DNA from: a virus | Virus record (IMG/VR): IMGVR_UViG_3300028177_000006 | Coordinates: 1 to 60,289 of that record | Length of the DNA stretch: 60,289 nt | Strand: one strand, 5' to 3' | Part shown: one piece after another, positions 1 to 40,044 of the stretch | How positions within the stretch are numbered: position 1 is the stretch's first letter | How the letters are laid out: each line of letters opens with the position of its first letter | Notes under the pieces: model-generated | The model's database searches: none | What the model saw: only the letters and a program-made list of their open reading frames with translations | What the model was told of the DNA's origin: nothing | Made by a program: the position numbers and the translations under genes

Positions 1-120
1 GGAGTAAACACCTCTAGGTGGTCCCTCCATCTCTTCGATTTCTATAATTGTTCCTGTACCTCTGTTGATACCACTATCAGGGTAGAACAAAGCATCACGA
101 ACTCTGGCACCAACTTTCAT
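1..120 (-). CDS. Small SH3/KOW-like protein, 3' part outside window
   Basis: The first 40 codons are visible, beginning MKVGARVRDALF; the rest lies beyond the left edge. The N-terminal M-K-V-G-x-x-V box and a later GTGTIIEIEE strand match the family of tiny beta-rich proteins that fills the next 7 kb, so I place it in that family. Its ATG overlaps the TGA of an upstream 10-codon remnant (ATATGA). The ribosome site is GGTGAGAG, a few bases upstream. Function unknown; an SH3-like fold is inferred from the pattern, not shown. Confidence 0.6.
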   Translation of the reverse strand, partial: MKVGARVRDALFYPDSGINRGTGTIIEIEEMEGPPRGVYS

Positions 121-149
121 ATTACTCTCACCAAATCACCGACTTGCAT
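117..149 (-). pseudogene. 10-codon remnant of an SH3-like gene start
   Basis: ATG followed by codons for MQVGDLVRVI and then TGA. These residues match the conserved N-terminal box of the neighbouring small paralogues, but the reading frame stops at once. It keeps the ribosome site AGGTGATCA and the usual 14-base overlap with the gene upstream, so it looks like the surviving head of a deleted or replaced cassette. It could still be translated as a coupling leader for the next gene, whose ATG overlaps its stop codon. Confidence 0.45.
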
Positions 150-336
150 TGATCACCTTCGCGCTGTCTTTGATAGCATAGCCAACCAATGTCTTTCGAC
201 CATCAATAATAATCTCATAATCAGGTGGATAGCCAGCACCACTAGGGATCGCGGCAATAATCAAACCGATGTTAGAGCGAAAGCCATACACACGGCAAGC
301 TAGACTATTCATCCGAATCAAATCACCGACTTGCAC
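136..336 (-). CDS. Small SH3/KOW-like paralogue (66 aa)
   Basis: I start this gene at GTG 336, giving (M)QVGDLIRMNS...NIGLIIAAIP...YEIIIDGRK...KVINASR. GGAGGT lies seven bases upstream and the reading matches its paralogues; an in-frame ATG further up would run through the neighbouring gene. Family pattern: an N-terminal VGDLV box, a central G-L-I/V strand, a polar loop, a hydrophobic strand and a terminal V-I-N tail, as in an SH3-like barrel. It overlaps the upstream gene by 14 bases, and its own last five codons are the out-of-frame reading of the remnant start at 147-149. Function unknown. Confidence 0.72.
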   Translation of the reverse strand: MQVGDLIRMNSLACRVYGFRSNIGLIIAAIPSGAGYPPDYEIIIDGRKTLVGYAIKDSAKVINASR

Positions 337-478
337 TAAGCACCTCCAAGAGTTTCGGCAGCATGTGGAAAACCATGCCATGCTGCGGGAAGCTGACGAG
401 CCAGCCGTCACTTTCCCACGCCAAGATGACACCGATGTTACCATCCATAGTCTCACGTACCAAACTGCCGACTTTCAT
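323..478 (-). CDS. Small SH3/KOW-like paralogue (51 aa)
   Basis: A 51-codon gene, MKVGSLVRETMD...NIGVILAWES...LLEVLSASR. It carries the family's VGxLV box, GVI strand and LLEV ending. Codons for LEV (TTG GAG GTG) contain the GGAGGT ribosome site of the next gene, and LSASR is the +1 reading of that gene's GTG CAA GTC GG. The ATG overlaps the stop of the upstream gene (TAATG), implying translational coupling. The shortest intact paralogue here. Function unknown. Confidence 0.72.
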   Translation of the reverse strand: MKVGSLVRETMDGNIGVILAWESDGWLVSFPQHGMVFHMLPKLLEVLSASR

Positions 479-828
479 TAGTATGTCACCGAACGCTGAA
501 CGTGCAGAGCCTCAAAGCCACGCCCTCGGATATCGGCGGGATCATCCAACCCCTCGCCAAGACGAATGAAGCGATAACCTTCGTCCTCATCCTCATCGTC
601 GCACCAGTCCATAAAATCTTGAACCGCTTCCACTTCTTCATAGCCTTCATACCACTTCGCACCGTACCAGTGGAACAGCACGCCGCCTTCACCATCATAA
701 TCATCTACGCGACGATCAGCGTGCTGATAACACATGGCGCGAGTCTCGGGACTCTTAGCCAGAGTGACTAGAAACTGGGGCAGTACCTCTTTGCTGACTG
801 CCAAAACTACTTCAGAACGATAACCCAT
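478..828 (-). CDS. Conserved phage protein, MGYRSEV family
   Basis: A 116-residue acidic protein beginning MGYRSEVVLAVSKEV, a start shared by a widespread family of small phage proteins of unknown function. A DEDEDEG stretch sits near residue 85 and the C-terminus is hydrophilic. First gene after promoter-like element P1 (854-886), with AGAGAGG as ribosome site. It leads a unit that runs into the small SH3-like genes to the left. I know of no biochemical role; the position suggests early expression and a host-takeover function, which is inference. Confidence 0.75.
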   Translation of the reverse strand: MGYRSEVVLAVSKEVLPQFLVTLAKSPETRAMCYQHADRRVDDYDGEGGVLFHWYGAKWYEGYEEVEAVQDFMDWCDDEDEDEGYRFIRLGEGLDDPADIRGRGFEALHVQRSVTY

Positions 829-853
829 GCAAACCTCTCTCTTTGTTGCTCAT

Positions 854-886
854 ATATTAGACGTACAGCCTTCATGTTTTATTCAA
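854..886 (-). promoter_or_regulatory. Promoter-like element P1 (21-bp spacer family)
   Basis: On the minus strand: TTGAATAAAA, then TACGTCTAATATATGAGCAA. TTGAAT and TAATAT are separated by exactly 21 bases, as in four other copies in this window. The upstream half overlaps the 3' end of the gene ending at 879. It precedes the gene starting at 828. Confidence 0.7.
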
Positions 887-1160
887 TCTTTCTTAAAGAA
901 AGTTGATCTTTCTGCGCACTTACGATCTCCAAGCTGTTCATGGCAAAGTTTCTTATCAACCTGCCATTGAACCAAAGCACATCAACCGTGCCGCCTCCGA
1001 GTAGTTTTGACCAGTTGCCGTTACGACTGACCTTCATTTCCTCTGGCAAATCACGAATCGCTACAACCATTCCCATCACTCTAGACGGAGGCATGGGCTT
1101 GCCGCCCTTGTGCAGATTTATTACTCTGTTACCTTGTCTTACTAAATCACCGACTTTCAT
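879..1160 (-). CDS. SH3/KOW-like paralogue, long form (93 aa)
   Basis: MKVGDLVRQGNRVINLHKGG...VMGMVVAIRDLPEE...GTVDVLWFNGR...NSLEIVSAQK, then a charged tail. It carries the MKVGDLV box, the G-M-V-V strand, the V-x-V-L-W strand typical of the family and the LEIVS ending. It has an insertion between strands two and three and a longer C-terminus, and is the last gene of its array, so its tail is not constrained by a downstream start. Its ATG overlaps the upstream gene by 14 bases. Function unknown. Confidence 0.78.
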   Translation of the reverse strand: MKVGDLVRQGNRVINLHKGGKPMPPSRVMGMVVAIRDLPEEMKVSRNGNWSKLLGGGTVDVLWFNGRLIRNFAMNSLEIVSAQKDQLSLRKIE

Positions 1161-1353
1161 TGATCACCCTCAAGTGTGTACTTTTCTGCGTAATCGGGTA
1201 GGGCGCTGGAGCGCCCGATCCCATCCACAAAACTTTAACGTCGGTGTTGCCTGTGTACTTTCCAGTTTCGACAACCAGACCAACATCAATGGATAGACCT
1301 TTGCGCTCCCGCGCTGCCTGAAACGCATACGATACCAGATCACCTACTTGCAC
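1147..1353 (-). CDS. SH3/KOW-like paralogue (68 aa, GTG start)
   Basis: (M)QVGDLVSYAFQAARER...IDVGLVVETGKY...DVKVLWMGSGAP...LRVINESR. Start GTG at 1353, preceded by GGAGGTGATCA. The VGDLV, VGLVVE and VKVLW segments are the family signature. The INESR tail is the out-of-frame reading of the next gene's ATG AAA GTC GG, with the stop TGA lying in its Gly-Asp codons. Function unknown; a small beta-barrel is inferred. Confidence 0.78.
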   Translation of the reverse strand: MQVGDLVSYAFQAARERKGLSIDVGLVVETGKYTGNTDVKVLWMGSGAPAPYPITQKSTHLRVINESR

Positions 1354-1516
1354 TGATCACCTCCACATCATCTGGGTCAGCAAGTTGTTCGCGTCCAATG
1401 CCCAGCAGGATTCTCCAATAATAAGAACCGCCCTCAAAATCGTAAGTTCCCACGATTATGCCTACGGCATATTGTCCCAGCTTCCTCTTTACTCTCACCA
1501 GATCACCGACTTTCAT
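1340..1516 (-). CDS. SH3/KOW-like paralogue (58 aa)
   Basis: A 58-codon gene: MKVGDLVRVKRKLG...VGIIVGTYDFEGG...YYWRILLGIG...DVEVISASR. It overlaps both neighbours by 14 bases, exactly like the other array members. The codons for VEV supply the GGAGGTGATCA ribosome site of the following gene. The family pattern is clear despite the small size. Function unknown. Confidence 0.75.
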   Translation of the reverse strand: MKVGDLVRVKRKLGQYAVGIIVGTYDFEGGSYYWRILLGIGREQLADPDDVEVISASR

Positions 1517-1706
1517 TGATTATCTCCAGTTGATCCAGCGGGGTTGAATACTCTGCCCCATCCCACAACACATATCCGCGAGTGATAACCGTCCAGCCTT
1601 CCGAATCCAGATCGGTAGCGTAAGTATCATCACGGACGTAAATGCCCACAACAGATTTCTCGTAGCCCGTTGGAAAGTTTACTAATACCAAATCACCGAC
1701 TTGCAT
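1503..1706 (-). CDS. SH3/KOW-like paralogue (67 aa)
   Basis: MQVGDLVLVNFPTGYEK...VVGIYVRDDTY...TRGYVLWDGAEYS...LDQLEIINESR. It has the MQVGDLV box, a VVGIYV strand, a GYVLWDG strand and the LEIINESR ending, whose last five codons are the frame-shifted reading of the downstream ATG AAA GTC GG. Fourteen-base overlaps on both sides. More acidic than its neighbours. Function unknown. Confidence 0.78.
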   Translation of the reverse strand: MQVGDLVLVNFPTGYEKSVVGIYVRDDTYATDLDSEGWTVITRGYVLWDGAEYSTPLDQLEIINESR

Positions 1707-1875
1707 TGATTACCTCCAGCAAGTGCGGGAACACATACCTTGAACCGCTAGCAAACAAAACTTTGGCAGCGGTGGAAGGTGAATCGGACACAGGTGAGGT
1801 GAAGCCGATCACCAAGCCAACAGATCCATCATGATCCATAAGAGTCGGCGCTTTTACTAAATCACCGACTTTCAC
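1693..1875 (-). CDS. SH3/KOW-like paralogue (60 aa)
   Basis: MKVGDLVKAPTLMDHDG...VGLVIGFTSPVSD...AAKVLFASG...LLEVINASR. First gene of the uninterrupted array after the fused gene upstream, whose TGA it overlaps by four bases (ATGA). The codons for LEV encode the next gene's GGAGGT. Sequence identity to its neighbours is concentrated in the VGDLV box and the tail, while the middle has diverged, as expected for old tandem duplicates. Function unknown. Confidence 0.78.
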   Translation of the reverse strand: MKVGDLVKAPTLMDHDGSVGLVIGFTSPVSDSPSTAAKVLFASGSRYVFPHLLEVINASR

Positions 1876-2330
1876 GATACCAACTCCAAGTCACGGGTGC
1901 TCAAGCCGACGCTGCCGATGTTCTGAACGCCAAGCCAACTAATGTCACAAACATCACTGCGTTCCTTGACAACCAAGCCAGTCACACCAGCAAAGCCCCA
2001 ACGCATAGCACGCTTGTTCTGCTTGCCACGAACCAGTTGACCCACGCTGAACTTGCAAGGTGGTGCCTTCATCGAGTGAAGCAGTTGTGTCAGGTTACTG
2101 CGGAACGAACCAGCAAAGTAATCGCTCTGCATATCAGAGTGATCGTTAGAGCGACGGCGATGCCAGTTGCATGCATCGTGTTCCATCGCAGAGGCTCTGT
2201 CACCGGAGTGACCGTTCGCAAGGAACGATCCGATCTCGTTTTCGTATCCCCACCAGAATCGGCTTCCGTCATACTGGACTACGACACCTAGGTACTTCTC
2301 GATCTTCTTGATTGCTGACTTGACTTTCAT
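1872..2330 (-). CDS. Two-domain protein: unknown N-domain plus SH3-like C-domain
   Basis: 152 residues. Residues 1 to about 90 (MKVKSAIKKIEKYLG...FWWGYENEIGSFLANG) form an unrecognised domain rich in aromatic, His and Asp residues. Residues about 93-152 (FSVGQLVRGKQN...GVTGLVVKERSDV...ISWLG...RDLELVS) repeat the SH3-like pattern of the genes to the left. It therefore appears to be a fusion of the small module to another domain. It is the first gene after promoter-like element P2, with AGAGAGG as ribosome site. Function unknown. Confidence 0.72.
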   Translation of the reverse strand: MKVKSAIKKIEKYLGVVVQYDGSRFWWGYENEIGSFLANGHSGDRASAMEHDACNWHRRRSNDHSDMQSDYFAGSFRSNLTQLLHSMKAPPCKFSVGQLVRGKQNKRAMRWGFAGVTGLVVKERSDVCDISWLGVQNIGSVGLSTRDLELVS

Positions 2331-2356
2331 GCTTGAACCTCTCTTTGTTGCTCACT

Positions 2357-2389
2357 ATATTAGACGTGCTAGCCCTTCATTTTATTCAA
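2357..2389 (-). promoter_or_regulatory. Promoter-like element P2 (21-bp spacer family)
   Basis: Minus strand: TTGAATAAAATGAAGGGC, then ACGTCTAATATAGTGAGCAA. The spacer from TTGAAT to TAATAT is 21 bases. The 5' half lies in an imperfect inverted repeat (TTTCATT...AATGAA). It precedes the gene starting at 2330. Confidence 0.72.
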
Positions 2390-2406
2390 TGAAAAGCAAA
2401 GAAAGT

Positions 2407-2652
2407 CTAAAAAAGATCGCGAATGTGCGTAAACTTCTTGGGCGGGTCCACAACGATAAGCGCGCCGCGATTGCGATCCGACTCCTCATAAGCATCTAAA
2501 TCAAATCTAGATAGAACCTGTCTCACCAAATCCTTCATTCTCTGAGAGTTTCCAGTAATGATTTTGAATGGGGCTTCGGTTCTATGAGCAAAGGCTATCA
2601 CTTGTGTTTCTACGTTCTCATGTTTTACGCCATGCAAGTCAAGCGTTTTCAT
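2407..2652 (-). CDS. Smr-domain (small MutS-related) protein
   Basis: 81 residues beginning MKTLDLHGVKHENVE. The DLHG motif near residue 4 and the later IITGNSQRMKDLVRQVL segment are the two hallmarks of Smr domains, which bind or nick branched nucleic acid, and in some families act as ribonucleases. The length equals a stand-alone Smr domain. I use the ATG at 2652, just after the methylase stop at 2657, rather than an upstream TTG overlapping the methylase. The cut-site specificity cannot be predicted. Likely a recombination or mRNA-processing accessory. Confidence 0.7.
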   Translation of the reverse strand: MKTLDLHGVKHENVETQVIAFAHRTEAPFKIITGNSQRMKDLVRQVLSRFDLDAYEESDRNRGALIVVDPPKKFTHIRDLF

Positions 2653-2656
2653 TTTG

Positions 2657-3541
2657 TCATCCAAGGTTAATGTTTCCAATCATCAGAATCTCTCTCGCTT
2701 TCTTTGCGGTGAAGGTTCCATCGTCATGCTTCTTTCTGCGTCCTGCCGTATAGGTCACGTCAAAATACACTATCTTGTTGTCGCCTGTCCGGTCCTCAAA
2801 GAACCCATCGCCCACATCACGGTTAGACATGATGGCGTATGCACCCAACTCCTTAGAATCATTGAGGAATCCAATCACTCGCTGTTGCATGCTGTCATCA
2901 AAGTTCACACCATACTGAGTGAATGAGCCGCGATAGGGAGGGTCGAGAAACACAAAGGCATTTTGATGGGTCAGTTCATGGCGCGTCTTTGCCAACACAC
3001 GCCCAAAGTCACCGGACAGCAGCGTGCATCGTTGCAGTGCATGGTGCCACTCCATCACATTATCACGGTCATAAACCTTGTCTTTCTGGTTCAACAGCCC
3101 GCTCGGAGTACCAAACCGACCATTCGTATTCTGGTTGATCTGCCAGATACCATTGAATCCTGTTTTCATCAGAAAGTATAATGTTGCAGCCTCGTCAGTC
3201 TCCGTCCACTTCTCATAATCGTAGGCATGTTCGTGTCGTAAAGCATAATAAAGCTCTTTGCGCTCGGGTTTGTCCAATGGCAGATAGCGATCCGAAAGAT
3301 GGTCTAGCCTGTCGATGAACAACTCAACATCATGCTTGACAGCAGTATAAATCTGCATGATTGACTCATTGTAATCATTCAGTACAAACTTAGCCTTTGG
3401 GTTCTTCTGGTATGCCCACACAAACATAGCGCCTGCACCGACGAACGGTTCAACATACAGGTCAAACGTATCTGGTAGATGTTCGGTATACTTTTTAATC
3501 ATGCGAGTCTTACCACCCGCCCACATAAACAATGGCTTCAT
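2657..3541 (-). CDS. dam: Dam-type adenine-N6 DNA methyltransferase (D12 class)
   Basis: 294 residues with the D12-class layout. MWAGGKTR at 6-13 and EPFVGAGAMF at 31-40 form the S-adenosylmethionine pocket, and DPPY at 199-202 is the catalytic motif. Enzymes of this type methylate adenine, often in GATC, but the target cannot be read from sequence. Its start overlaps the stop of the upstream PD-(D/E)XK nuclease-like gene by four bases, the arrangement expected of a modification-restriction pair. One of three adenine methylases in the window. It ends in NINLG, where the strand-biased AAGGTTAATG motif lies. Confidence 0.88.
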   Translation of the reverse strand: MKPLFMWAGGKTRMIKKYTEHLPDTFDLYVEPFVGAGAMFVWAYQKNPKAKFVLNDYNESIMQIYTAVKHDVELFIDRLDHLSDRYLPLDKPERKELYYALRHEHAYDYEKWTETDEAATLYFLMKTGFNGIWQINQNTNGRFGTPSGLLNQKDKVYDRDNVMEWHHALQRCTLLSGDFGRVLAKTRHELTHQNAFVFLDPPYRGSFTQYGVNFDDSMQQRVIGFLNDSKELGAYAIMSNRDVGDGFFEDRTGDNKIVYFDVTYTAGRRKKHDDGTFTAKKAREILMIGNINLG

Positions 3542-4035
3542 ACAATCTCCATGATTCTTGCAGCGACCTCACTAATGTTCGCATGCTTAGGTTCCATTAT
3601 AGCATAGTTTGACTCACAAAGCAATAGGTTGATCTCATCTTGATACTTCTGACCTTGGAACGTTTTACCTGAAAACACTAGAAAGAAAGGGCTGTCCACT
3701 GTGTTGTGTTCTTCTCTCACCTTGCGTTGCAGTGGCTCAGACAAGAATTTATACACACGCTCATGGGCGTTGCCTCCATTGTTCCCTGCTTTGTTCTCAA
3801 TGAAAAGGCACTTGCCTGTCTTTGTATTGGTGACCTTGGAATCCAGCTTGATCCCCCTGCCCTCGGTATAGATCACCAGCTTTGGCGGCTGGTGGTGGAC
3901 CGTGTAATGACTTGGCAAATGCTTTGCCAACGCAAATGCGAAAGTTTCTTCGCCAGCGGTGCCAACTTGATTAGCTTCAAGCTGCCAGTTTTCCCTGCTA
4001 GACAAATAATGCGGCGGCTGATCATGGTAGCTCAC
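3538..4035 (-). CDS. Putative PD-(D/E)XK restriction endonuclease
   Basis: 165 residues. GIKLDSKV (Asp65) followed by CLFIENKAG (Glu80-x-Lys82) gives the D...ExK metal site of the PD-(D/E)XK nuclease fold. GGNAHERVYKFL directly after resembles the GNAxER segment of EcoRI/MunI-like enzymes. It is co-translated with the Dam-type methylase (ATGA overlap), which supports a type II restriction-modification reading. An alternative is a self-protected phage nuclease for degrading host or rival DNA. Specificity unknown; the family assignment is by motif only. Confidence 0.6.
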   Translation of the reverse strand: MSYHDQPPHYLSSRENWQLEANQVGTAGEETFAFALAKHLPSHYTVHHQPPKLVIYTEGRGIKLDSKVTNTKTGKCLFIENKAGNNGGNAHERVYKFLSEPLQRKVREEHNTVDSPFFLVFSGKTFQGQKYQDEINLLLCESNYAIMEPKHANISEVAARIMEIV

Positions 4036-4270
4036 TTGTAGCTCCTAAGTTTAATGTTTCTTCGTGTACATCGAGCACTTCACCAGTTTGCAGCATGCTG
4101 ATTGTCCATCCTATCTCGGATGGCCACGCCTCGGGACACAGGCTATACATCTTAAATTCCTCTCCAGTCCTGATAGGATCTGGAATCTCACACTGCGCTA
4201 GCAACAGTACTGGACCTTGATCCAGCCAGTTATATACTCGCCCTGCCTTATATTTTGTCTTGTGTTTCAC
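4022..4270 (-). CDS. Small protein of the SH3-like zone (82 aa)
   Basis: Starts at GTG 4270 behind GGAGGTTATCA, giving (M)KHKTKYKAGRVYNWL...PVLLLAQCEIP...GWTISMLQTGEVLDV. An upstream ATG would overlap the previous gene much more. The beta-strand pattern and the ending (GEVLDV) suggest a divergent member of the small SH3-like set, though the VGDLV box is replaced by KAGRVYNW. It overlaps the nuclease gene by 14 bases, the same distance seen in the array. Function unknown. Confidence 0.55.
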   Translation of the reverse strand: MKHKTKYKAGRVYNWLDQGPVLLLAQCEIPDPIRTGEEFKMYSLCPEAWPSEIGWTISMLQTGEVLDVHEETLNLGATSELP

Positions 4271-4478
4271 TGATAACCTCCAAATGTTTGAACCCAAAGT
4301 CTGACCATGGCGTAGTTCGACCGGCGAATTTCACCGGTGCAATCCAGCGAATTCGGGCATGCTGATCGCCATCAGAGCCGCATGCAGTATACTGAACAAC
4401 CAGACCAACTGCTCCGATAAAATCTTTATAAACGTAACCCTTTGAGGGTCCAACATATTTGACTAATGTGCCGATCAT
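4248..4478 (-). CDS. SH3/KOW-like paralogue (76 aa)
   Basis: MIGTLVKYVGPSKG...GAVGLVVQYTACG...ARIRWIAPVKF...KHLEVISETQDKI. The family elements are present: a G-T-L-V box, VGLVVQY strand, I-R-W strand and LEVIS ending. The GAG GTT codons of LEV carry the ribosome site of the next gene. Its ATG overlaps the upstream stop by four bases. Function unknown. Confidence 0.73.
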   Translation of the reverse strand: MIGTLVKYVGPSKGYVYKDFIGAVGLVVQYTACGSDGDQHARIRWIAPVKFAGRTTPWSDFGFKHLEVISETQDKI

Positions 4479-4783
4479 GACTTATTCACCATCAACAGGG
4501 GAAAACCTGCGGGCAAGCCGCCCTCCACCATGCCGCCATGCTTCGCGATAACGTTAATGATGACTTGACGCGGAACCCAGCCATACACAGTATCGGTCGG
4601 CTTGTTCGGCGACTCACAGTACTCCATTAGCATCGGCTCACGCTCGCTCGGGAACCCGACCTCTGCTTCTGTGTAAAAGTCTGCGTTGTTCACGCGGGGC
4701 GTGCAGTATGATCCCTCATGGGCTTGCACACTCATGCTGAAGCCATCGGCGCATACTATCAAACTATTTCTCTTTGTGCTCAT
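4475..4783 (-). CDS. Conserved phage protein (102 aa)
   Basis: I begin at ATG 4783 (MSTKRNSLIVCADGFSMSV), behind AGAGAAG, rather than at an ATG 30 bases upstream that lacks a better site. The motifs CADGFSMSVQA, EVGFPSEREP and TVYGWVPRQVI belong to a small protein family common in tailed phages. No function is established. It contains three cysteines but no clear metal site. It sits inside the SH3-like array but is unrelated to it. Confidence 0.72.
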   Translation of the reverse strand: MSTKRNSLIVCADGFSMSVQAHEGSYCTPRVNNADFYTEAEVGFPSEREPMLMEYCESPNKPTDTVYGWVPRQVIINVIAKHGGMVEGGLPAGFPLLMVNKS

Positions 4784-5003
4784 TCTTCTCTGCCTTTTCC
4801 AAGAACATTTCATGGAAATTAAGTGTTTGTCCGTTTGTCATCCACAGCTTATAGATGGATGTAAACTTTATGTGTGGGTCGCGCCGTGGACCCATTTGAT
4901 CTTTTACTTCTTCAATGATTAAGCCCATACGACTATCGGGCAACTTCTCATCATGCGTACCATCCTTGATACGCACCAAATCTCCAACCTTAAACTTTTT
5001 CAT
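4764..5003 (-). CDS. SH3/KOW-like paralogue (79 aa)
   Basis: MKKFKVGDLVRIKDGTHDEK...RMGLIIEEVKDQ...KFTSIYKLWMTNG, then a lysine/glutamate-rich tail. The start at ATG 5003 is behind AGAGAAAAG; longer forms lack a ribosome site. The full family signature is present (KVGDLVR, MGLIIE, YKLW). The ATG overlaps the upstream TGA (CTGATG). Function unknown. Confidence 0.76.
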   Translation of the reverse strand: MKKFKVGDLVRIKDGTHDEKLPDSRMGLIIEEVKDQMGPRRDPHIKFTSIYKLWMTNGQTLNFHEMFLEKAEKNEHKEK

Positions 5004-5245
5004 CAGCTTTTCTCTACCGTGGCTAGCCGACAATCCGCAACGTTGCAAAGAACGATGTTGCTAAAATCAGTCAACGGACGAACCTTTGCAATCGAAAGTC
5101 CCACCTCAACAATGATACCGTGCGACTCTTTTTCTTCGTATTCCTGCGGGTTCGATGAGGCATAGTGGGTAAATGCCACCATGTCGCCAGCACTGAATCG
5201 CGGTTCAGTTGAAAGGTTATTAATATTAGCTTTGTGCTTCTTCAT
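5003..5245 (-). CDS. SH3/KOW-like protein (80 aa)
   Basis: MKKHKANINNLSTEP, then FSAGDMVAFTHY...SHGIIVEVGLSIAKVRPLTD and NVADCRLATVEKS. A 17-residue basic/polar extension precedes a family-type barrel (SAGDMV box, HGIIVEV strand, AKVRPL strand). It is coupled to the next gene by a shared TGATG. Function unknown. Confidence 0.65.
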   Translation of the reverse strand: MKKHKANINNLSTEPRFSAGDMVAFTHYASSNPQEYEEKESHGIIVEVGLSIAKVRPLTDFSNIVLCNVADCRLATVEKS

Positions 5246-5492
5246 AGCCGCTTAGTAACTTCACATTATGCGAATGCACATTGTAATAAGACCTGCCTTG
5301 CGACAAGACCTTGAGTATTTGATAGTACGGACTACAACCGTCTGGTAGGCTTCCGCCAGTCGAGAAAAGGTTAATACAGTGCCAGTGAGATGCCTTCAGC
5401 ACAACTGCCTGCCCATTGGGGCATGGTATAAACATTTCTTTGTCCACATGCTGTACGTGGATCAGATCTCCTTTCTGGTATGCTCTCTGCAC
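5226..5492 (-). CDS. SH3/KOW-like protein (88 aa, GTG start)
   Basis: (M)QRAYQKGDLIHVQHVD...GQAVVLKASHWHC...YYQILKVLSQGRSYYNV...VKLLSGYEEAQS. Start GTG 5492 lies within TAGTG of the upstream stop and has GGAGGC in front. KGDLIHV, a hydrophobic V-V-L strand and YYQILKV follow the family plan with a longer loop. It overlaps the next gene by 20 bases. Function unknown. Confidence 0.62.
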   Translation of the reverse strand: MQRAYQKGDLIHVQHVDKEMFIPCPNGQAVVLKASHWHCINLFSTGGSLPDGCSPYYQILKVLSQGRSYYNVHSHNVKLLSGYEEAQS

Positions 5493-5716
5493 TAAGCCTC
5501 CGCGATGATGCAACCGGGAACACTCACGATTGCCGAGAACAGATTCTCGATTTGGAAGCGCTCTGCCATGCCCTCTGGCGAGTCAGGATCATCAATGGCA
5601 GCGAGCTTTTCGACCGCCATCGCCCATACAGAGTGTTGAGTGACATTATCACCGAACTCAGCGGCTCGCACAATCGCAGCTTCAAAGGGAGTAAGATTAG
5701 TTTCGATTTCTTCCAT
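5492..5716 (-). CDS. Small unknown protein (74 aa)
   Basis: MEEIETNLTPFEAAIVRAAEFG...VWAMAVEKLAAID...FQIENLFSAIVSVPGC. Mostly helical, acidic, no recognised domain. Start ATG 5716 is behind GGTGA; a GTG nine bases upstream, which would overlap the previous stop by four bases, is the alternative. Not part of the SH3-like set. Confidence 0.6.
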   Translation of the reverse strand: MEEIETNLTPFEAAIVRAAEFGDNVTQHSVWAMAVEKLAAIDDPDSPEGMAERFQIENLFSAIVSVPGCIIAEA

Positions 5717-5721
5717 GTTAT

Positions 5722-6084
5722 TCACCGTGCGTACACAACGCCATATGGGGTTACAGACTTTAGACCATTCGCGCCGTCGTTGACGTATCCACGAATAGCG
5801 GAGTTGCCCTTTGTATAAGGGGCTTTATAGGTTGCAGCCTTAAAGATTGCACCATCGGACTTGCGAACAAACCCATACACAGAGCACTGACGACCACCGC
5901 CATGCTCTACCGGATCTTGCTTGACAACCTTCCAATAAGTCCGACCGGGGTGGACGGCTATCTCGGGCGGTGTCAGCATCGCATAGTTTTTGGCGAAATG
6001 CTCATTGACCATGACCTGAACGCCCTTTACGAAGGTGTCAAAGGCATATTCAATTTCTTCTGGACTTCTCTTGTTAAGCTGCAT
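5722..6084 (-). CDS. Conserved phage protein (120 aa)
   Basis: A helical N-terminus followed by GRTYWKVVKQ, SVYGFVRKSDGAIFKAA, AIRGYV and a TPYGVVYAR ending. This pattern belongs to a family of small phage proteins with the sense 'phage-specific fold, function unknown', often encoded among early genes. First gene behind promoter-like element P3, with AAAGGAGAG ribosome site. I cannot assign a role. Confidence 0.75.
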   Translation of the reverse strand: MQLNKRSPEEIEYAFDTFVKGVQVMVNEHFAKNYAMLTPPEIAVHPGRTYWKVVKQDPVEHGGGRQCSVYGFVRKSDGAIFKAATYKAPYTKGNSAIRGYVNDGANGLKSVTPYGVVYAR

Positions 6085-6111
6085 GTAACTCTCCTTTCTT
6101 TGTTGTTCACT

Positions 6112-6144
6112 ATATTAGACGTATGGGGCTTTCATTTTATTCAA
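6112..6144 (-). promoter_or_regulatory. Promoter-like element P3 (21-bp spacer family)
   Basis: Minus strand: TTGAATAAAATGAAAGCC, then ACGTCTAATATAGTGAACAA, with 21 bases between TTGAAT and TAATAT. The upstream part is a near-perfect inverted repeat (GCTTTTCATT...AATGAAAGC). It precedes the gene starting at 6084. Confidence 0.72.
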
Positions 6145-6195
6145 TGAAAAGCAAAGAAAAATCAACTTTTTCCGGAGGCTCTTTGTCGTCGGAGG

Positions 6196-6495
6196 TTAAT
6201 AATCATCACGCTTAACTGCGAGGATGATGGCATCAATATAGCCGGGTGGCACTTTGAGGGTAACCCTGCGCCACCCCATCCACATCGGTCCAGTATCTAT
6301 GAGATCCCATATGCCCTCCTCGATTTGCTCACGGACATTCTCTCTTTCGATGATCAGTTCCAAGAGGTTGCCCCCATCGTCCGAAACAAACCTGATGTGA
6401 AACGGTTGATCATAGACCCTATTGATATGTTTCTCTAAAGCTGCTTTGGCTTCTGCTTTAGAAGCCTTCTCTCCACTGAAAAAAATGTTCGCCAT
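6196..6495 (-). CDS. Unknown protein (99 aa)
   Basis: MANIFFSGEKASKAEAKAAL...PFHIRFVSDDGGNLLELIIE...TGPMWMGWRRVTLKVPPGYI. Mixed alpha/beta, no recognised motif. AAGGAGAG precedes the start. A TATATTAT-like -10 lies just upstream (about 6517-6530) without a convincing -35, so it may have its own weak promoter. Its TAA is embedded in GATTATTAACCTCC, a variant of the strand-biased motif. Confidence 0.6.
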   Translation of the reverse strand: MANIFFSGEKASKAEAKAALEKHINRVYDQPFHIRFVSDDGGNLLELIIERENVREQIEEGIWDLIDTGPMWMGWRRVTLKVPPGYIDAIILAVKRDDY

Positions 6496-6555
6496 ACTCT
6501 CTCCTTATAGCGTTTACGCCCATATAATATATAGAAGAAAGCACGCGAATAAGGG

Positions 6556-7014
6556 CTAGAATGGGATGATTAGTTCGTTGAAATTTGTCGTTTGCGGGAA
6601 TAAGTACCAAACTTCGGGTGGCCAAAGGTTAATGTCGGGATATAGCTCCTTAACCATCGCAACATGATTCAAGGCTTCCTCCATTTCCGAAAGGCTTTTT
6701 GCAAAGCTGTTCTTGTGTAACCAGCCCACAGTTAGATCGCATGCGATTCGGGTGCCACCAAAGTTCATGCCTATCTCAAAGTCGTTAGATTTGAGAAAGG
6801 TTAGTTTTGTATCTCTTATTCTGTTGTCAAGGTGAATGGAACCCGTGGTGCGGATCCTTTCCCTTTTATCCGGTAGAACAATGTCGCCAGCGTACCAGTG
6901 CCGTATGACATTCTCTACTGTTTCTAGGTTTGTCTCATAAAATAGTGGATGCGTACCTCGGAACGTACCAGCCATCTGCGTGTTCTTGAGCCATACTTTT
7001 GTTATCTTGCTCAT
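6556..7014 (-). CDS. Unknown protein (152 aa)
   Basis: MSKITKVWLKNTQMAGTFRG...ETVENVIRHWYAGDIV...CDLTVGWLHKNSF...YPDINLWPPEVWYLF. No family recognised. Rich in Trp and Tyr, with alternating strands and short helices. Its ATG overlaps the stop of the upstream SH3-like gene (GAATGA), so the two are coupled. INL near residue 130 coincides with an AAGGTTAATG copy. Confidence 0.6.
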   Translation of the reverse strand: MSKITKVWLKNTQMAGTFRGTHPLFYETNLETVENVIRHWYAGDIVLPDKRERIRTTGSIHLDNRIRDTKLTFLKSNDFEIGMNFGGTRIACDLTVGWLHKNSFAKSLSEMEEALNHVAMVKELYPDINLWPPEVWYLFPQTTNFNELIIPF

Positions 7015-7382
7015 TCTCTGTCCTGTGCTTTGCCCATAATTTTGAAAAACCGAGCCTCGTACCAGTCTTTATCAAAGATAGCGCCGTGCGCCTCGGTATA
7101 CTTTAACATTTCTTGAACCGTAACTGCGTCAGGTGGATCTCCAGTCCACTCAAGCGTGTACTCGCTGTCGTACATCGGCACGGCAATATGCTTCGGCGCA
7201 AACTTTCCTTTTCGCATCCACTTGATTCGTACACATTCTTCATATCGTCTGTTCTTGTCGTCCCATGGCGACTTGGCGCGCCACAAATAGCTGCGCTTGT
7301 CAATCACCAGACCAACAGTTTCATGCCCTCTACCACCTACATTATACCACACAAGATCGCCAATTTGCAACTGCTTTTTCAC
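7011..7382 (-). CDS. SH3/KOW-like protein with C-terminal extension (123 aa)
   Basis: (M)KKQLQIGDLVWYNVGGRG...TVGLVIDKRSY...ECVRIKWMRKGKF, then an extension of about 50 residues (VQEMLKYTEAHGAIFDKDWYEARFF). The first 75 residues have the family signature (IGDLV, VGLVID, VRIKWM). The C-terminal part looks helical and is unique here. GTG start next to the upstream TAA (TAAGTG). Function unknown. Confidence 0.7.
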   Translation of the reverse strand: MKKQLQIGDLVWYNVGGRGHETVGLVIDKRSYLWRAKSPWDDKNRRYEECVRIKWMRKGKFAPKHIAVPMYDSEYTLEWTGDPPDAVTVQEMLKYTEAHGAIFDKDWYEARFFKIMGKAQDRE

Positions 7383-7631
7383 TTATTTCCCGGCGCTTGA
7401 CAGCACTTCAAATGCGTACTTGGATGTGTCTAACATATGATACTCGCATGAGCGTGGAATATAAACCACGACTGTTGGCGAATCGTCATTAGCCACATCG
7501 ACAATAAGACCGTAGCAATACACGGGATTGGCTGGCCAAACGCCGCCTTCATCGTCTGCCGAAAAGACGGCATAGCTTATAACCCAACGAACAAAATCGC
7601 CGCGATGTACCTTTGGTTGTGTGAGTTGCAC
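7383..7631 (-). CDS. SH3/KOW-like protein (82 aa, GTG start)
   Basis: (M)QLTQPKVHRGDFVRWVIS...YCYGLIVDVANDDSP...VVVYIPRSCEYH...YAFEVLSSAGK. It has the RGDFVRW box, YGLIVDV strand, VVVYIP strand and a FEVLS ending. The ribosome site is weak. It ends in the TAA that abuts the next GTG. Function unknown. Confidence 0.66.
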   Translation of the reverse strand: MQLTQPKVHRGDFVRWVISYAVFSADDEGGVWPANPVYCYGLIVDVANDDSPTVVVYIPRSCEYHMLDTSKYAFEVLSSAGK

Positions 7632-14046: not shown

Positions 14047-14340
14047 CTATGCATCCCCCACGGGAGTCAACCCCTTCATTAGTTGTGCTTCATATTCATC
14101 GGTAATCGACTTCATGATCGCTTTCTCTGCTTCTTTCATCTCTTCCATATGGTTCCACAATAAAACATTTTCATCTTTTACTGCATCTAGCTGATCAGAC
14201 AGCTTCTTGTTGTGTACTTTAAGTAACTCAACAGTGTATCTTAATTCGTGGTTCGTCCGATGGAGAGAGGATTTCGATGTTCCCGCTCTCAAGACTTTCC
14301 GTAAAATCGCGGACATTGATTGTGTGACGCTTTTTGCCAT
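14047..14340 (-). CDS. Coiled-coil protein (97 aa)
   Basis: MAKSVTQSMSAILRKVLRAG, then a long heptad region (ELRYTVELLKVHNKKLSDQL...EEMKEAEKAIMK). Start ATG 14340 behind GGGGAACAG. The first 113 bases overlap the end of the upstream gene in another frame, unusually long for this genome. If the start is wrong, the coiled coil would begin near residue 35. Possibly a virion or scaffold accessory; unknown. Confidence 0.55.
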   Translation of the reverse strand: MAKSVTQSMSAILRKVLRAGTSKSSLHRTNHELRYTVELLKVHNKKLSDQLDAVKDENVLLWNHMEEMKEAEKAIMKSITDEYEAQLMKGLTPVGDA

Positions 14341-14476
14341 TTCTGTTCCCCATTGAAAAAATCTCATAATAGTATTCCCTTTGCATGTCGTCATGCCTGT
14401 GTTCTGTAAAACCTACCCAGAATTTATCCACCACGACGTGCATGTTGTGACCGATCATTACCAACGAACCAATCAT
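14228..14476 (-). CDS. Small SH3-like protein (82 aa)
   Basis: MIGSLVMIGHNMHVVVDKFWVGF...YYEIFSMGNRNGKKRHTINV...GNIEILSPSDEPRIKIHC. The I-G-S-L-V box and G-N-I-E-I-L ending follow the small SH3-like plan. The ATG overlaps the upstream stop by four bases (ATGA), which decides the start over an upstream ATG. Outlying member of the family, far from the main array. Function unknown. Confidence 0.58.
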   Translation of the reverse strand: MIGSLVMIGHNMHVVVDKFWVGFTEHRHDDMQREYYYEIFSMGNRNGKKRHTINVRDFTESLESGNIEILSPSDEPRIKIHC

Positions 14477-14859
14477 GTTGTCGTCTCGGTTGGGACACCC
14501 CACCGGACAATGCTTAGTCCCTTGATTTTCGCCATGTCTTTTACCAAGTATCTTTTAACCCAATACGTCGGTCGCAACTCAGAGTTAAGCTCAAACTTAA
14601 TAATATATCGGTTGAACCAATACTGGTCGGTTGCTCTGGCTCGGCTCTGAGCGCCGGCACGGGCAGGATCTGTAACGGTTGTAACGCGCTCGATTGCACG
14701 CATGTCATCAATCGTCTGGTCTTTGTTACCGCCCTTCTCCTTACTAATACGAACATCCACCTCGACCTCATACGTGCGCTGAATGTAGGTCGGATCTTTA
14801 GTGGCTGCCTCTTTAAGAGCGGCGAACCATTTGTCTGTTGCTGTTTGTGAACTCATCAT
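14473..14859 (-). CDS. Conserved phage protein (128 aa), probably virion-related
   Basis: MMSSQTATDKWFAALKEAA...RTYEVEVDVRISKEKGGNKDQTIDDMRAIERVTTV...YIIKFELNSELRP...VKRYLVKDMAKIKGLS. The IDDMRAIERVTTV segment recurs in proteins of marine myoviruses, often near structural genes. A TATAAATA-type site lies at 14860-14867, directly before the start, with no clear Shine-Dalgarno. Role unknown. Confidence 0.6.
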   Translation of the reverse strand: MMSSQTATDKWFAALKEAATKDPTYIQRTYEVEVDVRISKEKGGNKDQTIDDMRAIERVTTVTDPARAGAQSRARATDQYWFNRYIIKFELNSELRPTYWVKRYLVKDMAKIKGLSIVRWGVPTETTT

Positions 14860-18205: not shown

Positions 18206-19795
18206 TTAGTCCGATGTTTCGATTACCGCGTGACTGGTTGTAAATAAAGTGCCGGCTGCTGATGCTGCATTCTGCAACGCACAACGGGTGACCTTCACAG
18301 GGTCAATCACGCCAGACTCTACCATCTTTGTCAGCTTGCCAGTGTGAAAATCCCAGCCCTCATCAGGTGAAGCTGCACGGATCTTATCACAAATCAAATC
18401 AGGGCTTTCCCCTGCATTCACTGCCATCTGTCTAAGCGGGGCATGCACTGCAGCCTTTATGATCTCAATCCCACAGCGCTGCTCTTCGTTGTCAGCGTCA
18501 ATCTTCAATGCTGCTGCTGCGCGAATAAGCGCTACGCCTCCGCCGGGTACAATGCCCTCTTGCTGCGCAGATCTTACTGCCTCTAGCGCATCTTCGATCC
18601 GATAACGCTTTTCAGTCATCTCGATCTCGGTGGCTGCGCCCACTCGGATCACAGCAACGCCGCTAGCGAGCCTAGTAATGCGCTCCTGCAGCTTCTCGCA
18701 TTCGTGAATGGAATCAGTTACCGATAGTTCTGCCTTAAGGTTCTCAATCTGTTCCTCGATCTTGGCATAGTCGCCTTCACCGCCGGCAACAGTCGTGCCG
18801 CCCTTGGTAATCTCGATAGTCTTGCAAGAGCCTAAGTGCTCCAAGGTTACTCCCTCCGGAGACAAGCCCTTGGAAATAGTAATGAAGGTCGCGCCTACAG
18901 ATAGTGCCAAGTCCTGCATGATGTTTAGCCGATCCTCGCCATAGCGGGGTGCCTTCACTGCTGCAACCTTGATTCCTGAGTTCATTTCCTGACGGCGAAT
19001 AGCGTTCATGACCAACGCAGCCAATGCCTGACCCTCTACTTCGTCTGCAACAACAATCAATGGACGGCTGCTGCGGTCTGCGATCTCAAGCACAGGCAAC
19101 AACTCATCCACTCGCTCAATCTTGGCATCGGTTACCATAATAAGTGGATTTTCATATCGAACTTGCCTGCGGCGAGAGTCTGTGATGAAAGCGGTGGCTA
19201 CATATCCAGAAGCAAATCGGAAGCCTTCAATCAGATCCAAGCTTGTCTCTAAGCTCCGCGCTTCTTCGACAGTCACAGCCCCATCTTTGCCGACGCTATC
19301 GACTGCAGTTGCCACCAGTTCGCCCAACGTGCGATCATTGTTGGCAGAAATGGTCGCGACGTGAGCAATATCTTCCTTGCTCTTAATCGGCTGAGCCATG
19401 TCCTGAAGGTTAATAACTACTGCAGCTACTGCCTTGTCCATACCGCGCTTCAACTCAATTGGCGACATGCCTGAGGCAAGATAGCGCTGAGATTGTTCTA
19501 GAATCTCACGCGCAAGAACAGTTGCAGTTGTAGTCCCATCGCCGGCTGAAGAATTTGTTTGTGAAGACGCTTGTTTAATGATCTGCGCTCCAACATTCTC
19601 AAACGGATCGTCCAGTTCTACGTGTTTCGCTACAGTCACGCCATCCTTGGTGATGATGGGGGTGCCGCCGGCGGTCTGTAGGATTACATTCCTGCCTCTC
19701 GGTCCCAAAGTTGCTGCTGTATAATCAGCCAGCAGGTTTACGCCATTCATAATCTTCTGGCTTAAGCCCACACCATTGTTGTACTCTTTAGACAA
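18206..19795 (-). CDS. groEL: Chaperonin GroEL
   Basis: 529 residues. LGPRGRNVIL near 30, KDGVTVAKHVELDDPFENVGAQ at 50-72 and GDGTTTATVLA near 86-96 are the ATP-binding and catalytic motifs. The length is near the usual 540, and the protein lacks the bacterial GGM C-terminal repeat. A GroES-like gene is encoded 15 kb away. The pair would fold phage capsid or replication proteins, replacing or supplementing host GroEL, as in other large phages. It has its own near-consensus sigma70 promoter (19821-19849), suggesting immediate, host-driven transcription. Confidence 0.95.
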   Translation of the reverse strand: MSKEYNNGVGLSQKIMNGVNLLADYTAATLGPRGRNVILQTAGGTPIITKDGVTVAKHVELDDPFENVGAQIIKQASSQTNSSAGDGTTTATVLAREILEQSQRYLASGMSPIELKRGMDKAVAAVVINLQDMAQPIKSKEDIAHVATISANNDRTLGELVATAVDSVGKDGAVTVEEARSLETSLDLIEGFRFASGYVATAFITDSRRRQVRYENPLIMVTDAKIERVDELLPVLEIADRSSRPLIVVADEVEGQALAALVMNAIRRQEMNSGIKVAAVKAPRYGEDRLNIMQDLALSVGATFITISKGLSPEGVTLEHLGSCKTIEITKGGTTVAGGEGDYAKIEEQIENLKAELSVTDSIHECEKLQERITRLASGVAVIRVGAATEIEMTEKRYRIEDALEAVRSAQQEGIVPGGGVALIRAAAALKIDADNEEQRCGIEIIKAAVHAPLRQMAVNAGESPDLICDKIRAASPDEGWDFHTGKLTKMVESGVIDPVKVTRCALQNAASAAGTLFTTSHAVIETSD

Positions 19796-22543: not shown

Positions 22544-23191
22544 TCAAACAATAATGTCCGCGATACCGTACTCAACCGCTTCTGTGGCTGAGAGATATAC
22601 ATTGACCTTTCTCTCCAACAATCTCTTAAGAGTTCGCTTGGTTAGGTTAGTCTCTCGGACGAGGGCATTGACATAGTTTTCTTGAGAGTTTCTAATCTCG
22701 TCCATTTCATTTTCTAGATTATGGAGCGAGCCATGGTTTCCGCCGATGACCGAATGGATCATTACACGGCAGTTGGCACCGATCTTGCGCTTGCCCTTGG
22801 AGCCGGCTGCTAGCAATAGAACGCCAGCAGACATCACCTTTCCTAATCCGAATGTGTGGATCTCGCAATCCTTCTGGATCATACGCATTACATCGTAGAG
22901 AGCGAACATATCGTCGGCGCTGCCGCCGTACGTGGAGATGATAAACTCCATTGGCTCCCATTCTTCCTGTCCCTCTTCCCCAGACTTGCCTGAGTTGTGG
23001 AGGACCAGCAAGCCGCTTAGGGTCTCGCGGGACTTGCGTTCATCGATGTCTCCGTAAAGACCTACGACGCGCATCTCCTCATCGGGCTCCATGCCCAAGG
23101 CAGCGGCTAGCTGCTCTGCGGTCAGGTCATTGCCTGACTCCTCTTCTTCTTCTTCTTTCTTCTCTGCTTCTTTTTTGGGCGACATCAACAT
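22544..23191 (-). CDS. ClpP-like serine protease 1
   Basis: 215 residues. A 30-residue Lys/Glu-rich leader precedes a ClpP fold: YGGSADDMFALYD at 88-100, GKVMSAG with Ser121 and VMIHSVIGG with His146, the standard 25-residue spacing. Where ClpP usually has Asp in E-R-D, this protein has LERKVNV, so the third triad residue is Lys or is supplied elsewhere. It sits next to an acidic scaffold-like gene and may serve as the prohead protease, as ClpP-type proteases do in some phages. A host-protein-degrading role is the alternative. Confidence 0.8.
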   Translation of the reverse strand: MLMSPKKEAEKKEEEEEESGNDLTAEQLAAALGMEPDEEMRVVGLYGDIDERKSRETLSGLLVLHNSGKSGEEGQEEWEPMEFIISTYGGSADDMFALYDVMRMIQKDCEIHTFGLGKVMSAGVLLLAAGSKGKRKIGANCRVMIHSVIGGNHGSLHNLENEMDEIRNSQENYVNALVRETNLTKRTLKRLLERKVNVYLSATEAVEYGIADIIV

Positions 23192-24221: not shown

Positions 24222-24476
24222 TCATCTATTAAATAAAAAGTCTTTCAAGTATTTAGCGCGGAGAGAGATCTTCTCTAAAGCACGCTTCTCGACCTGCTGT
24301 ATTCTGGCTGGCGTGTACTTTAATCTTTTGCCGACCTCTTCCAAAGTCATGTTACCATGTTTATAAACTGCCACTAAGGTACAGTTCAGGTCGCCTGTAT
24401 AATCTATCCATAATCGACATTCTTTCTGTTTGCATTTTTTATTTTTTTGGAGACACGTTCTTGCGCAGCGCCTCAT
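24222..24476 (-). CDS. Sigma-region-4-like transcription factor with Cys-rich N-terminus
   Basis: 84 residues. Four cysteines (C-x3-C, C-x4-C) at 4-20 could bind zinc. MTLEEVGKRLKYTPARIQQVEKRALEKI at about 43-70 is a helix-turn-helix of the sigma70 region 4 type (compare LxEVGxxLxVTxxRIxQIExxALxKL), but no region 2 is present. It probably tethers RNA polymerase to -35-like DNA or acts as a late co-activator. It could read the 21-bp-spaced or TATAAATA-type sites; unproven. Confidence 0.72.
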   Translation of the reverse strand: MRRCARTCLQKNKKCKQKECRLWIDYTGDLNCTLVAVYKHGNMTLEEVGKRLKYTPARIQQVEKRALEKISLRAKYLKDFLFNR

Positions 24477-24742
24477 CTCGCCTCATCCATCACATTTGCT
24501 GACGCAATCATGGCAGCATGAATCTTGGAGATTTCTTCGTATCCTTTTATCACAGTTACATGGTCACAGCGGAACCACCCATCCTCTATCTCCGGAGGCA
24601 GGGGTGTCGTAAACTTCACCTTATGCCAACGCCACGGAGGTAGGGCGCTGGTGCGCCGTAGTTCTGATTCCACAATAATCCCATAATAGCCCGGGCTGCT
24701 CTTGCGATTCCACAACACGATGTTTCCTAATTCATAACTCAT
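24473..24742 (-). CDS. Small SH3-like protein (89 aa)
   Basis: MSYELGNIVLWNRKSSPGYYGIIVESELRR...WHKVKFTTPLP...FRCDHVTVIKGYEEI, with a helical tail of about 20 residues. The LGNIVLW box, YYGIIVE strand, VKF strand and VTVIK ending follow the family plan. It is separated by 17 kb from the main array. The ATG overlaps the upstream gene by 11 bases. Function unknown. Confidence 0.62.
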   Translation of the reverse strand: MSYELGNIVLWNRKSSPGYYGIIVESELRRTSALPPWRWHKVKFTTPLPPEIEDGWFRCDHVTVIKGYEEISKIHAAMIASANVMDEAR

Positions 24743-25058
24743 TGTGCTCCTCTTCGATCATGTCGAATATGTTTTCTATCTCATTTGAGTCGAGAGCGAA
24801 ATGCTCTGTAAGTTTCTTGCCTTGAGCGCTCAGCTTCTTAGACTTTGCATTCTTCAGCTTGCTGTGCTTGCTCTTCTCAGACTTTAATGTTCCCAAAAAC
24901 TGCATAAATTCTGGCGACTGGTTTACATAAGCATCAATACAGCCACGAAAGAAATCTGACTGACTGATTCCATCATAGTGTAGTCGGATGCGCAAATCAG
25001 CATGAACCTTGTCGTTCTCTCTGAAAACCACTCGCTTGTTATAAAATTCATCTGACAT
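24732..25058 (-). CDS. Ribbon-helix-helix-like phage protein (108 aa)
   Basis: NKRVVFRENDKVHADLRIRLHYDGISQSDFFRGCIDAYVNQ forms a strand plus two helices like an Arc/MetJ half-site unit. A lysine-rich linker and an acidic end (EIENIFDMIEEEHNEL) follow. Conserved in marine T4-like phages. DNA or RNA binding is plausible; the specific target is unknown. Overlaps the IMPDH stop by 11 bases. Confidence 0.6.
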   Translation of the reverse strand: MSDEFYNKRVVFRENDKVHADLRIRLHYDGISQSDFFRGCIDAYVNQSPEFMQFLGTLKSEKSKHSKLKNAKSKKLSAQGKKLTEHFALDSNEIENIFDMIEEEHNEL

Positions 25059-28483: not shown

Positions 28484-29089
28484 TTATTCAAATTTGATAT
28501 CTACGTTGATATCAACGTTAAACTTTGGCATGCCAATGCTGGTAGCTAGACCGTGCTCTAAACACTCGTCTGCGTCCAAATACCAGTCGGCGTGACCCTT
28601 ATCGTGAATCATTTTCAAAAAATAGGTTTTACTTTTGCCGCAATTTGCAGCCATCATGTAATAAACCTTCTTCTGTAGCCTCTCACATTCCTTAGCATCT
28701 GCCTTGATCTCTTCGACCTTCCCCCATGCGCCAGTTGATATGTCATGAATCATAACGGTGGCGTGAGGGTCCATGTACCGCATGCCCTTGTTTCCAAAGC
28801 TCATGAGGATGGCGCCGCAGGACATAGCCTTCCCCTGAACAATGGTAGCTACTGGTAGTACAGAGTTCTGGATATCTGAAATCATAGAGAGGAGGCTGTA
28901 TACCTGCCCGCCATAAGAATCGATAATAACAGGAACCACAGGCTGACCAGTGTTGTGTGCCTTCGCCATTTTCTCGGAGAAGTCTTTTGCTGTAACCTCG
29001 TTGAAGTTCCGAACCCTGATGACAACCGGGAAGTCATCTCTCAAGTCGTAGTCCTTCAACAGAGGACTAGCGTTAATAATGTGCTTCAT
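28484..29089 (-). CDS. ClpP-like serine protease 2
   Basis: 201 residues. IIDSYGGQVYSLLSMI at 55-70, GKAMSCG with Ser90 and VMIHDIST with His115 keep the 25-residue spacing of ClpP catalytic Ser and His. The C-terminal region ADWYLDADECLEHGLA is the usual ClpP end. It is diverged from ClpP1 and lacks the acidic leader. Translationally close to Pol III alpha (stop to start four bases). It may supply the host ClpX/ClpA with a phage-specific chamber, or cleave another substrate. Confidence 0.82.
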   Translation of the reverse strand: MKHIINASPLLKDYDLRDDFPVVIRVRNFNEVTAKDFSEKMAKAHNTGQPVVPVIIDSYGGQVYSLLSMISDIQNSVLPVATIVQGKAMSCGAILMSFGNKGMRYMDPHATVMIHDISTGAWGKVEEIKADAKECERLQKKVYYMMAANCGKSKTYFLKMIHDKGHADWYLDADECLEHGLATSIGMPKFNVDINVDIKFE

Positions 29090-39980: not shown

Positions 39981-40011
39981 ATTATTTCTCCTTCCTTCTT
40001 TGTTGTTCACT

Positions 40012-40044
40012 ATGTTAGACGTATGAGGGCTAAGTTTTATTCAC
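40012..40044 (-). promoter_or_regulatory. Promoter-like element P5 (21-bp spacer family)
   Basis: Minus strand: GTGAATAAAACTTAGCCC, then TACGTCTAACATAGTGAACAA. 21 bases separate GTGAAT and TAACAT. The only copy away from the left 9 kb. It precedes the secreted-protein gene and slightly overlaps the end of recA. Confidence 0.7.

Follow-up and report, generated by a model that had tools for sequence, protein, structure and literature searches.

Translationally coupled overlapping genes (e.g., those meeting in ATGA) carry the ribosome site of the downstream gene within the upstream gene, and the start codon precedes the stop codon. In integrons, the attC sites sit outside the genes and need IntI. 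In T4-type phages, mobile regulatory cassettes called PeSLs reportedly consist of an intergenic promoter and a stem-loop between unrelated genes, and they are said to allow the shuffling of modules through homologous recombination (Arbiol et al. 2010, Genome Biol Evol 2:140, cited in PMC4177764). In Campylobacter group II phages, repeats mostly of 72-86 bp form largely extragenic arrays that separate modules of 28-55 kb (PMC4546147). Here we analyzed a 60.3-kb virus record of IMG/VR (IMGVR_UViG_3300028177_000006; 60,289 nucleotides), which is hereafter called the window. Its minus strand carries arrays of small genes, here called units, for predicted SH3-like proteins, and consecutive units share one short overlapping junction. 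Our results suggest that these are probably operon-like arrays of interchangeable one-domain genes, in which the junction preserves translation as units come and go.

Relatives were gathered by an exact search of IMG/VR for the junction, which gave at least 119 stretches and 1.08 million bases, the window included. A family profile was grown from eight window copies over the relatives with a membership threshold of E<1e-3. At least about 1,088 matches were detected in at least 119 IMG/VR stretches, whereas reversed proteins gave none. Thus, chance or profile drift is ruled out as the source of the matches. Because the pattern used to find loci includes the junction, we reran the tests of overlap, tail and codon use without the junctions that match it. 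The results held, and search bias is rejected as their cause.

Structure and Codon Use of the Junction

An earlier note on this DNA had reported overlaps of exactly 14 bases between consecutive genes. All five were present in the window, at 1693-1706, 1503-1516, 1340-1353 and 1147-1160 in one chain of genes (1875-1693, 1706-1503, 1516-1340, 1353-1147 and 1160-879) and at 323-336 in another (478-323 and 336-136). When the pattern-selected junctions were removed, 391 of 485 close gene pairs overlapped by exactly 14 bases. The next commonest overlap was 4 bases (39 pairs). Among 514 distinct junctions, the informative positions ran from about -12 to +20 relative to the start codon (~32 bases), and information was near zero outside. 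The consensus is TGGAGGTNATCAGTGAAAGTCGGTGATTTGGT. Within loci, identity was 0.80 inside the junction and 0.28 on either side. The upstream TGA sits in the Gly-Asp codons of the next gene. The stop codon is thus inside the next start box, as the same note had read it.

Codon use was compared between overlapped (internal) and free (leader) starts. The Gly4 codon was GGT at all of the overlapped starts (374/374), because the upstream TGA demands it, and at 97 of 136 free starts. The codon GTC was used for Val3 in 83% of overlapped starts and in 67% of the free ones, whereas for Val7 its share was only 5% and 7%, respectively (pattern matches removed; p<1e-23 for each comparison). The usage of GTC in gene bodies was 21.5%. 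Since GTA at Val3 would leave the residues unchanged in both frames, the retention of GTC means that a nucleotide-level feature is conserved. These codon counts indicate that the junction is constrained as nucleotides beyond the needs of the two proteins, for exchange or for translation start. The earlier note had allowed that junction identity might be no higher than codon use predicts. This comparison was run, and conservation exceeded codon use.

Ribosome Site, C-terminal Tails and Array Ends

The L-E-V codons at the gene ends had been proposed to carry a GGAGG ribosome site for the next gene. A site is present there, but the literal GGAGG occurs at only three of the five window junctions, and GGAGA and GAGGG are found at the others. 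The Glu codon of L-E-V was GAG in 349 of 359 followed genes, in 23 of 37 last genes and in 45% of cases in gene bodies. A Shine-Dalgarno-like motif was detected in L-E-V in 339 of 384 followed genes (88%) and in 19 of 53 last genes (36%; p=6e-16). These counts show that the ribosome site is written into the L-E-V codons mainly where a gene follows.

The tails INASR, INESR and ISASR were confirmed to be out-of-frame readings of the next start box, and LSASR is read in the same way. Genes ending in SR made up 500 of the 679 with an overlapping start behind them and 9 of the 385 others, and several of these nine do overlap a start box, although one that is damaged or cut. Where another unit follows, copies of the unit at 323-478 (78-90% identical) end in SASR, DASR or DEAR; in last position, the ending is SPDISLTT or similar. 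Both results rule out that the tail is conserved for the protein's own sake. The SR tail is thus a by-product of overprinting. As in translationally coupled genes, the ribosome site lies within the upstream gene and the start and stop codons overlap, and translation may be coupled along the array.

At the array ends, the stop TGA was found inside TTGAC in 45 of 168 last units, compared with 7 of 863 other units; about 6% is expected. A TATAAT-like box follows 16-18 bases on, with a peak at 17, in 40% of 50 units with a TTGAC stop. Thus, the end of a run is often found within the next promoter's -35 box. In loci L030, L025, L005, L026 and others, the next run has a sigma-70-like promoter whose TTGAC(A) contains the stop of the last unit, and such promoters often have two or three consecutive TTGAC repeats.

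Predicted Fold and Selection

The common SH3-like fold claimed for the units agrees with structure prediction. The product of 1340-1516 was modelled with AlphaFold2 together with 61 relatives, and an SH3-like barrel was obtained (predicted local distance difference test score, pLDDT, 94.6) with strands at residues 6-10, 16-26, 32-38, 42-46 and 51-55. Its ISASR tail is at and beyond the end of the last strand. By Foldseek, the closest solved structures were SH3-like barrels of the Tudor/KOW type (best E 4.6e-3; query template modelling score about 0.65-0.80). The model of 7383-7631, whose alignment contains rows of the family, has the same order of five strands, with moderate confidence (pLDDT 76). 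The proteins have ~60 residues, and the residues of the barrel core (VGDLV, G-(I/L/V)-V, V-x-W and L-E-V-I) are conserved, whereas the loops are near random between members.

In profile searches, the family consensus reached 14.1 bits and single members gave no score against the Pfam KOW motif (PF00467), below its cut-off of 22.3 bits. The window copies had no match below E 0.1 in PHROGs, and a few of the 62 relatives matched undescribed PHROGs (best 1.4e-5). The mean net charge is -0.02 per residue, and general nucleic-acid binding is therefore not favoured. In homologous units, the ratio of nonsynonymous to synonymous substitution rates (dN/dS) of the bodies was 0.12-0.15 (~0.13), showing strong purifying selection. 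Of 718 start boxes, 717 lead into open reading frames (ORFs) of at least 30 codons.

Gain, Loss and Shuffling of Units

The earlier note had suggested that units could be inserted, lost or shuffled without breaking translation. Comparison of loci bears this out: whole units are gained and lost at junctions, and their neighbours change. Closely matched arrays differed by single units that only one of the two had; the flanks were 86-100% identical, and the break was at the junction (e.g., L012 compared with L117 and L074; L063 with L030; L014 and L030 with L077). When units of different loci were at least 80% identical, they had an immediate neighbour in common in 14 of 208 comparisons; for other genes of these loci the count was 44 of 99, with slightly different definitions of a neighbour in the two counts. 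For the unit at 1147-1353, a copy of 88-90% identity is flanked by other units on both sides. In several contigs, the gene before relatives of this unit is an unrelated zinc-finger-like one (CTCPGFGWRRKCKH) with an NESR-type tail. Since this gene carries the same junction and tail, the upstream partner need not be a family member. In L133, L134 and L136-L138, the same 14-nt junction connects a unit to a SWIM-like zinc-finger gene that is not a family member and that ends in NESR or similar. Copies are rarely alike within one locus. Thus, recent local duplication is not their main source. Between the junctions of one locus, the median best exact run was 18 nt.

Proposed Model and Its Alternatives

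In the model we propose, each gene encodes a predicted SH3-like barrel of ~60 residues, in which the core is fixed and the surface loops vary strongly. The ~32-base junction combines the last strand of the upstream protein with the ribosome site and start codon of the next gene and the first strand of its protein, and the upstream stop is held within invariant Gly-Asp codons. Because one and the same block, in one phase, stands at both ends of every unit, a unit that is added, lost or swapped from start to start leaves a complete and working junction. Units would thereby circulate as cassettes between virus genomes. The last unit of a run has a different ending in place of the junction, and in many cases its stop is within the next promoter's -35 box. 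The phage's own recombination may use the short homology of the junction, and the UvsX-like recombinase of the window (40037-41173, minus strand; PHROG 97, E 2.5e-55) is a candidate for this step. Exact runs of 18 bases are plausibly long enough for general phage recombination. The unit proteins may be an early-expressed repertoire that binds host or defence proteins; intact, selected and hypervariable domains in arrays with sigma-70-like promoters would fit such a repertoire, and the array neighbours offer no decisive functional clue.

Several points weigh against this model. Leaders, which have no upstream overlap, still retain GTC, so that translation start may account for some of the conservation. 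Recombination is deduced from the comparison of arrays and not from an observed event, and the near-identity of the junction on both sides blurs the exact break point inside it. Exact junction runs are hardly longer within than between loci; there is no sign of local homogenisation, and gene conversion as its cause is unsupported. No enzyme dedicated to the junction was found among the annotated neighbours or the scanned window proteins, in a scan that covered part of the genes. The binding role is our reading of the sequences, and the near-zero net charge counts only against general nucleic-acid binding.

The strongest alternative is that the junction is kept only as protein. The fold would need an MKVGDLV start and an LEVI end, tight packing would yield the overlap, and units would move by ordinary mosaicism. 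The conserved residues do belong to the barrel core, phage early regions are generally mosaic, and even the non-family genes analyzed here switch neighbours in about half of the comparisons. However, this explanation does not account for GTC being kept at Val3 and not at Val7 of the same proteins (83% and 5%) although GTA codes equally in both frames, nor for GAG and the ribosome site being retained mainly where a gene follows. Overlaps of 4 bases would serve equally, yet they are ten times rarer, and units switch neighbours far more than other genes of the same loci. We consider the protein-only explanation unlikely.

It is also conceivable, but to a clearly lesser degree, that the junction is the site of a dedicated, integron-like site-specific recombinase instead of general homologous recombination. 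The sharp confinement of conservation to ~32 bases beyond coding needs and the gain and loss of units as wholes would suit such a site, and the consensus holds a weak dyad, ATCAnnGAnnnTCnnTGAT. By a rough count, however, this dyad is within chance, and no integrase-like family was detected among the annotated neighbours or the part of the window proteins that was scanned. That the arrays are decaying remnants of repeated duplication without present function is scarcely credible: one orphan start box of the window (117-149) would agree with it, but it is the only orphan among the 718 boxes, copies within a locus are rarely alike, and the selection on the bodies (dN/dS 0.12-0.15) contradicts decay.

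Distribution of the Family

The carriers are large uncultured, mostly marine viruses of microbes. The window belongs to a lineage without close cultured relatives; against 50,697 phage records, its DnaE-type polymerase and UvsX-like protein reached a best identity of only ~30%. In the same records, no tblastn match to the family was obtained from cultured or isolate phages with one or twelve representatives. Relatives of the window were also sought by means of its 120-amino-acid gene at 5725-6084, and none was found. The 28 virus records searched whole (most 150-290 kb) have 6 to 31 family copies each; these records were picked because the junction is present, and the numbers describe carriers, not marine phages generally.

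Among bacterial and archaeal genomes, 11 contigs, all metagenome-assembled, fit a looser pattern, and family members were detected in 6 of the 11. The family-bearing contigs are probably stray virus contigs. In L129 (CP070664.1, a WOR-3 "chromosome"), the array starts past a run of N adjoining bacterial ATPase genes. This array is probably a virus contig mis-scaffolded into the WOR-3 genome.

Genes and Other Elements of the Window

About 19 members of the family had been counted in the window. Ten of them reach E<1e-3, five are borderline (E 0.04-0.34), and four are unsupported: the profile gave E of 1 or worse, or no match, for 4022-4297, 5226-5492, 14228-14503 and the gene at 17338. All array genes and junctions described below are on the minus strand.

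Main array: The leader gene (1872-2330, 152 amino acids) has a unit-like C-terminus of borderline support (E 0.04) and overlaps the next gene by 4 nt. The first member with 14-nt overlaps is a unit of 60 amino acids with a GTG start (1693-1875, E 9.8e-12). It is followed by units of 67 (1503-1706, E 8.9e-12), 58 (1340-1516, E<1e-3; the modelled barrel) and 68 amino acids (1147-1353, E<1e-3), the last of which has its 88-90% identical copy, with other neighbours, in L132/L104. The final unit (879-1160, 93 amino acids, E 3.7e-9) has no follower, and it ends in ...SLRKIE without an SR tail.

Second chain: A unit of 51 amino acids (323-478, E<1e-3), whose copies elsewhere have different neighbours as well as different tails, is joined at 323-336 to a unit of 66 amino acids (136-336, E 1.7e-6) with a GTG start and the tail INASR. 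This junction has GGAGG just upstream, the GTG start and a TGA stop. The next junction (136-149) is a normal one of 14 nt and leads into the orphan start box, MQVGDLVRVI*, at 117-149. The box stops after ten codons and is the sole one of the 718 that opens an ORF of less than 30 codons. Its TGA overlaps a second start, ATG AAA GTT GGT, by 4 bases. This is the start of a unit-like gene (MKVGARVRD...) at 1-120 (ORF 1-135), which is clipped by the contig end and has borderline support (E 0.34).

Divergent units: Two units outside any 14-nt overlap were found at 4248-4478 (76 amino acids, E 3.1e-6) and 4764-5003 (79 amino acids, E 4.8e-7), and a third, of 123 amino acids and carrying an insertion, at 7011-7382 (E 1.6e-4). 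Possible divergent units of borderline support are at 5003-5245 (E 0.04) and 7383-7631 (82 amino acids, E 0.2; modelled as above), and a further borderline candidate is at 24473-24757 (E within 0.04-0.34).

Other elements: An inverted repeat, TTCATTGAATAAAATGAA, with a TAATAT-like element, GTCTAATATAGTGA, lies upstream of the leader at 2342-2393 (minus strand), and the same block is present at 6097-6148. The GTCTAATATAGTGA block recurs at 39997-40020 without the inverted repeat, and a variant was seen near 840-900. The repeat block of both elements upstream of leader genes resembles a cassette of a promoter plus a stem-loop. At 2657-4035 (minus strand), there is a 4-nt overlap between a gene for an N6-adenine methyltransferase (MethyltransfD12) and one that weakly matches the MunI restriction enzyme (E 5.8e-5, below the cut-off); the two are possibly a phage-borne restriction-modification-like pair. 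A GroEL-like chaperonin and two different Clp-type proteases are encoded at 18206-19795, 22544-23191 and 28484-29089 (minus strand).

Comparison with Known Systems

A coding overlap is usually seen as a barrier to rearrangement. Here it is arranged to permit free rearrangement, because a stop codon, a ribosome site and a start codon in one conserved block would let any unit fit any neighbour. The family is large, very diverse and under selection in large viruses, and it had no match in the phage records searched. If its proteins bind host or defence targets, the arrays would be a natural collection of small binding domains, and comparison of arrays would reveal what the viruses adapt to. More tentatively, and at somewhat less than even chances, the arrays may represent an undescribed cassette system: hundreds of small genes for SH3-like binders would circulate as a shared pool, in which the junction is both translation switch and exchange point, and would serve as a fast-changing repertoire against host proteins or defences. 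In a literature search largely confined to openly available papers, no account was found of arrays in which a single junction, coding twice, joins paralogues.

Like PeSLs, the junction is short, recurs between early genes of large phages and marks where the order of modules changes. However, a PeSL is intergenic, whereas the array junction codes in both genes through its 14-nt overlap and joins one protein family. Blocks that are possibly PeSL-like do occur in the window (2342-2393 and 6097-6148), away from the junctions. With integrons, the arrays share small exchangeable genes with a common boundary, but this boundary carries translation signals, and no IntI-type enzyme was detected in the part of the proteins that was scanned. 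In contrast to other coupled genes, one fixed 14-nt overlap is repeated hundreds of times between paralogues, and its stop lies in invariant Gly-Asp codons. The repeats of Campylobacter group II phages are likewise repeated DNA tied to module shuffling in large phages, but they separate modules and are not gene-gene junctions (PMC4546147). The nearest known idea is thus the mobile regulatory cassette of the PeSL type, and integrons and coupled operons match in single features. Modular exchange in phages is already known, and there is a fair chance that these arrays deserve a separate category.

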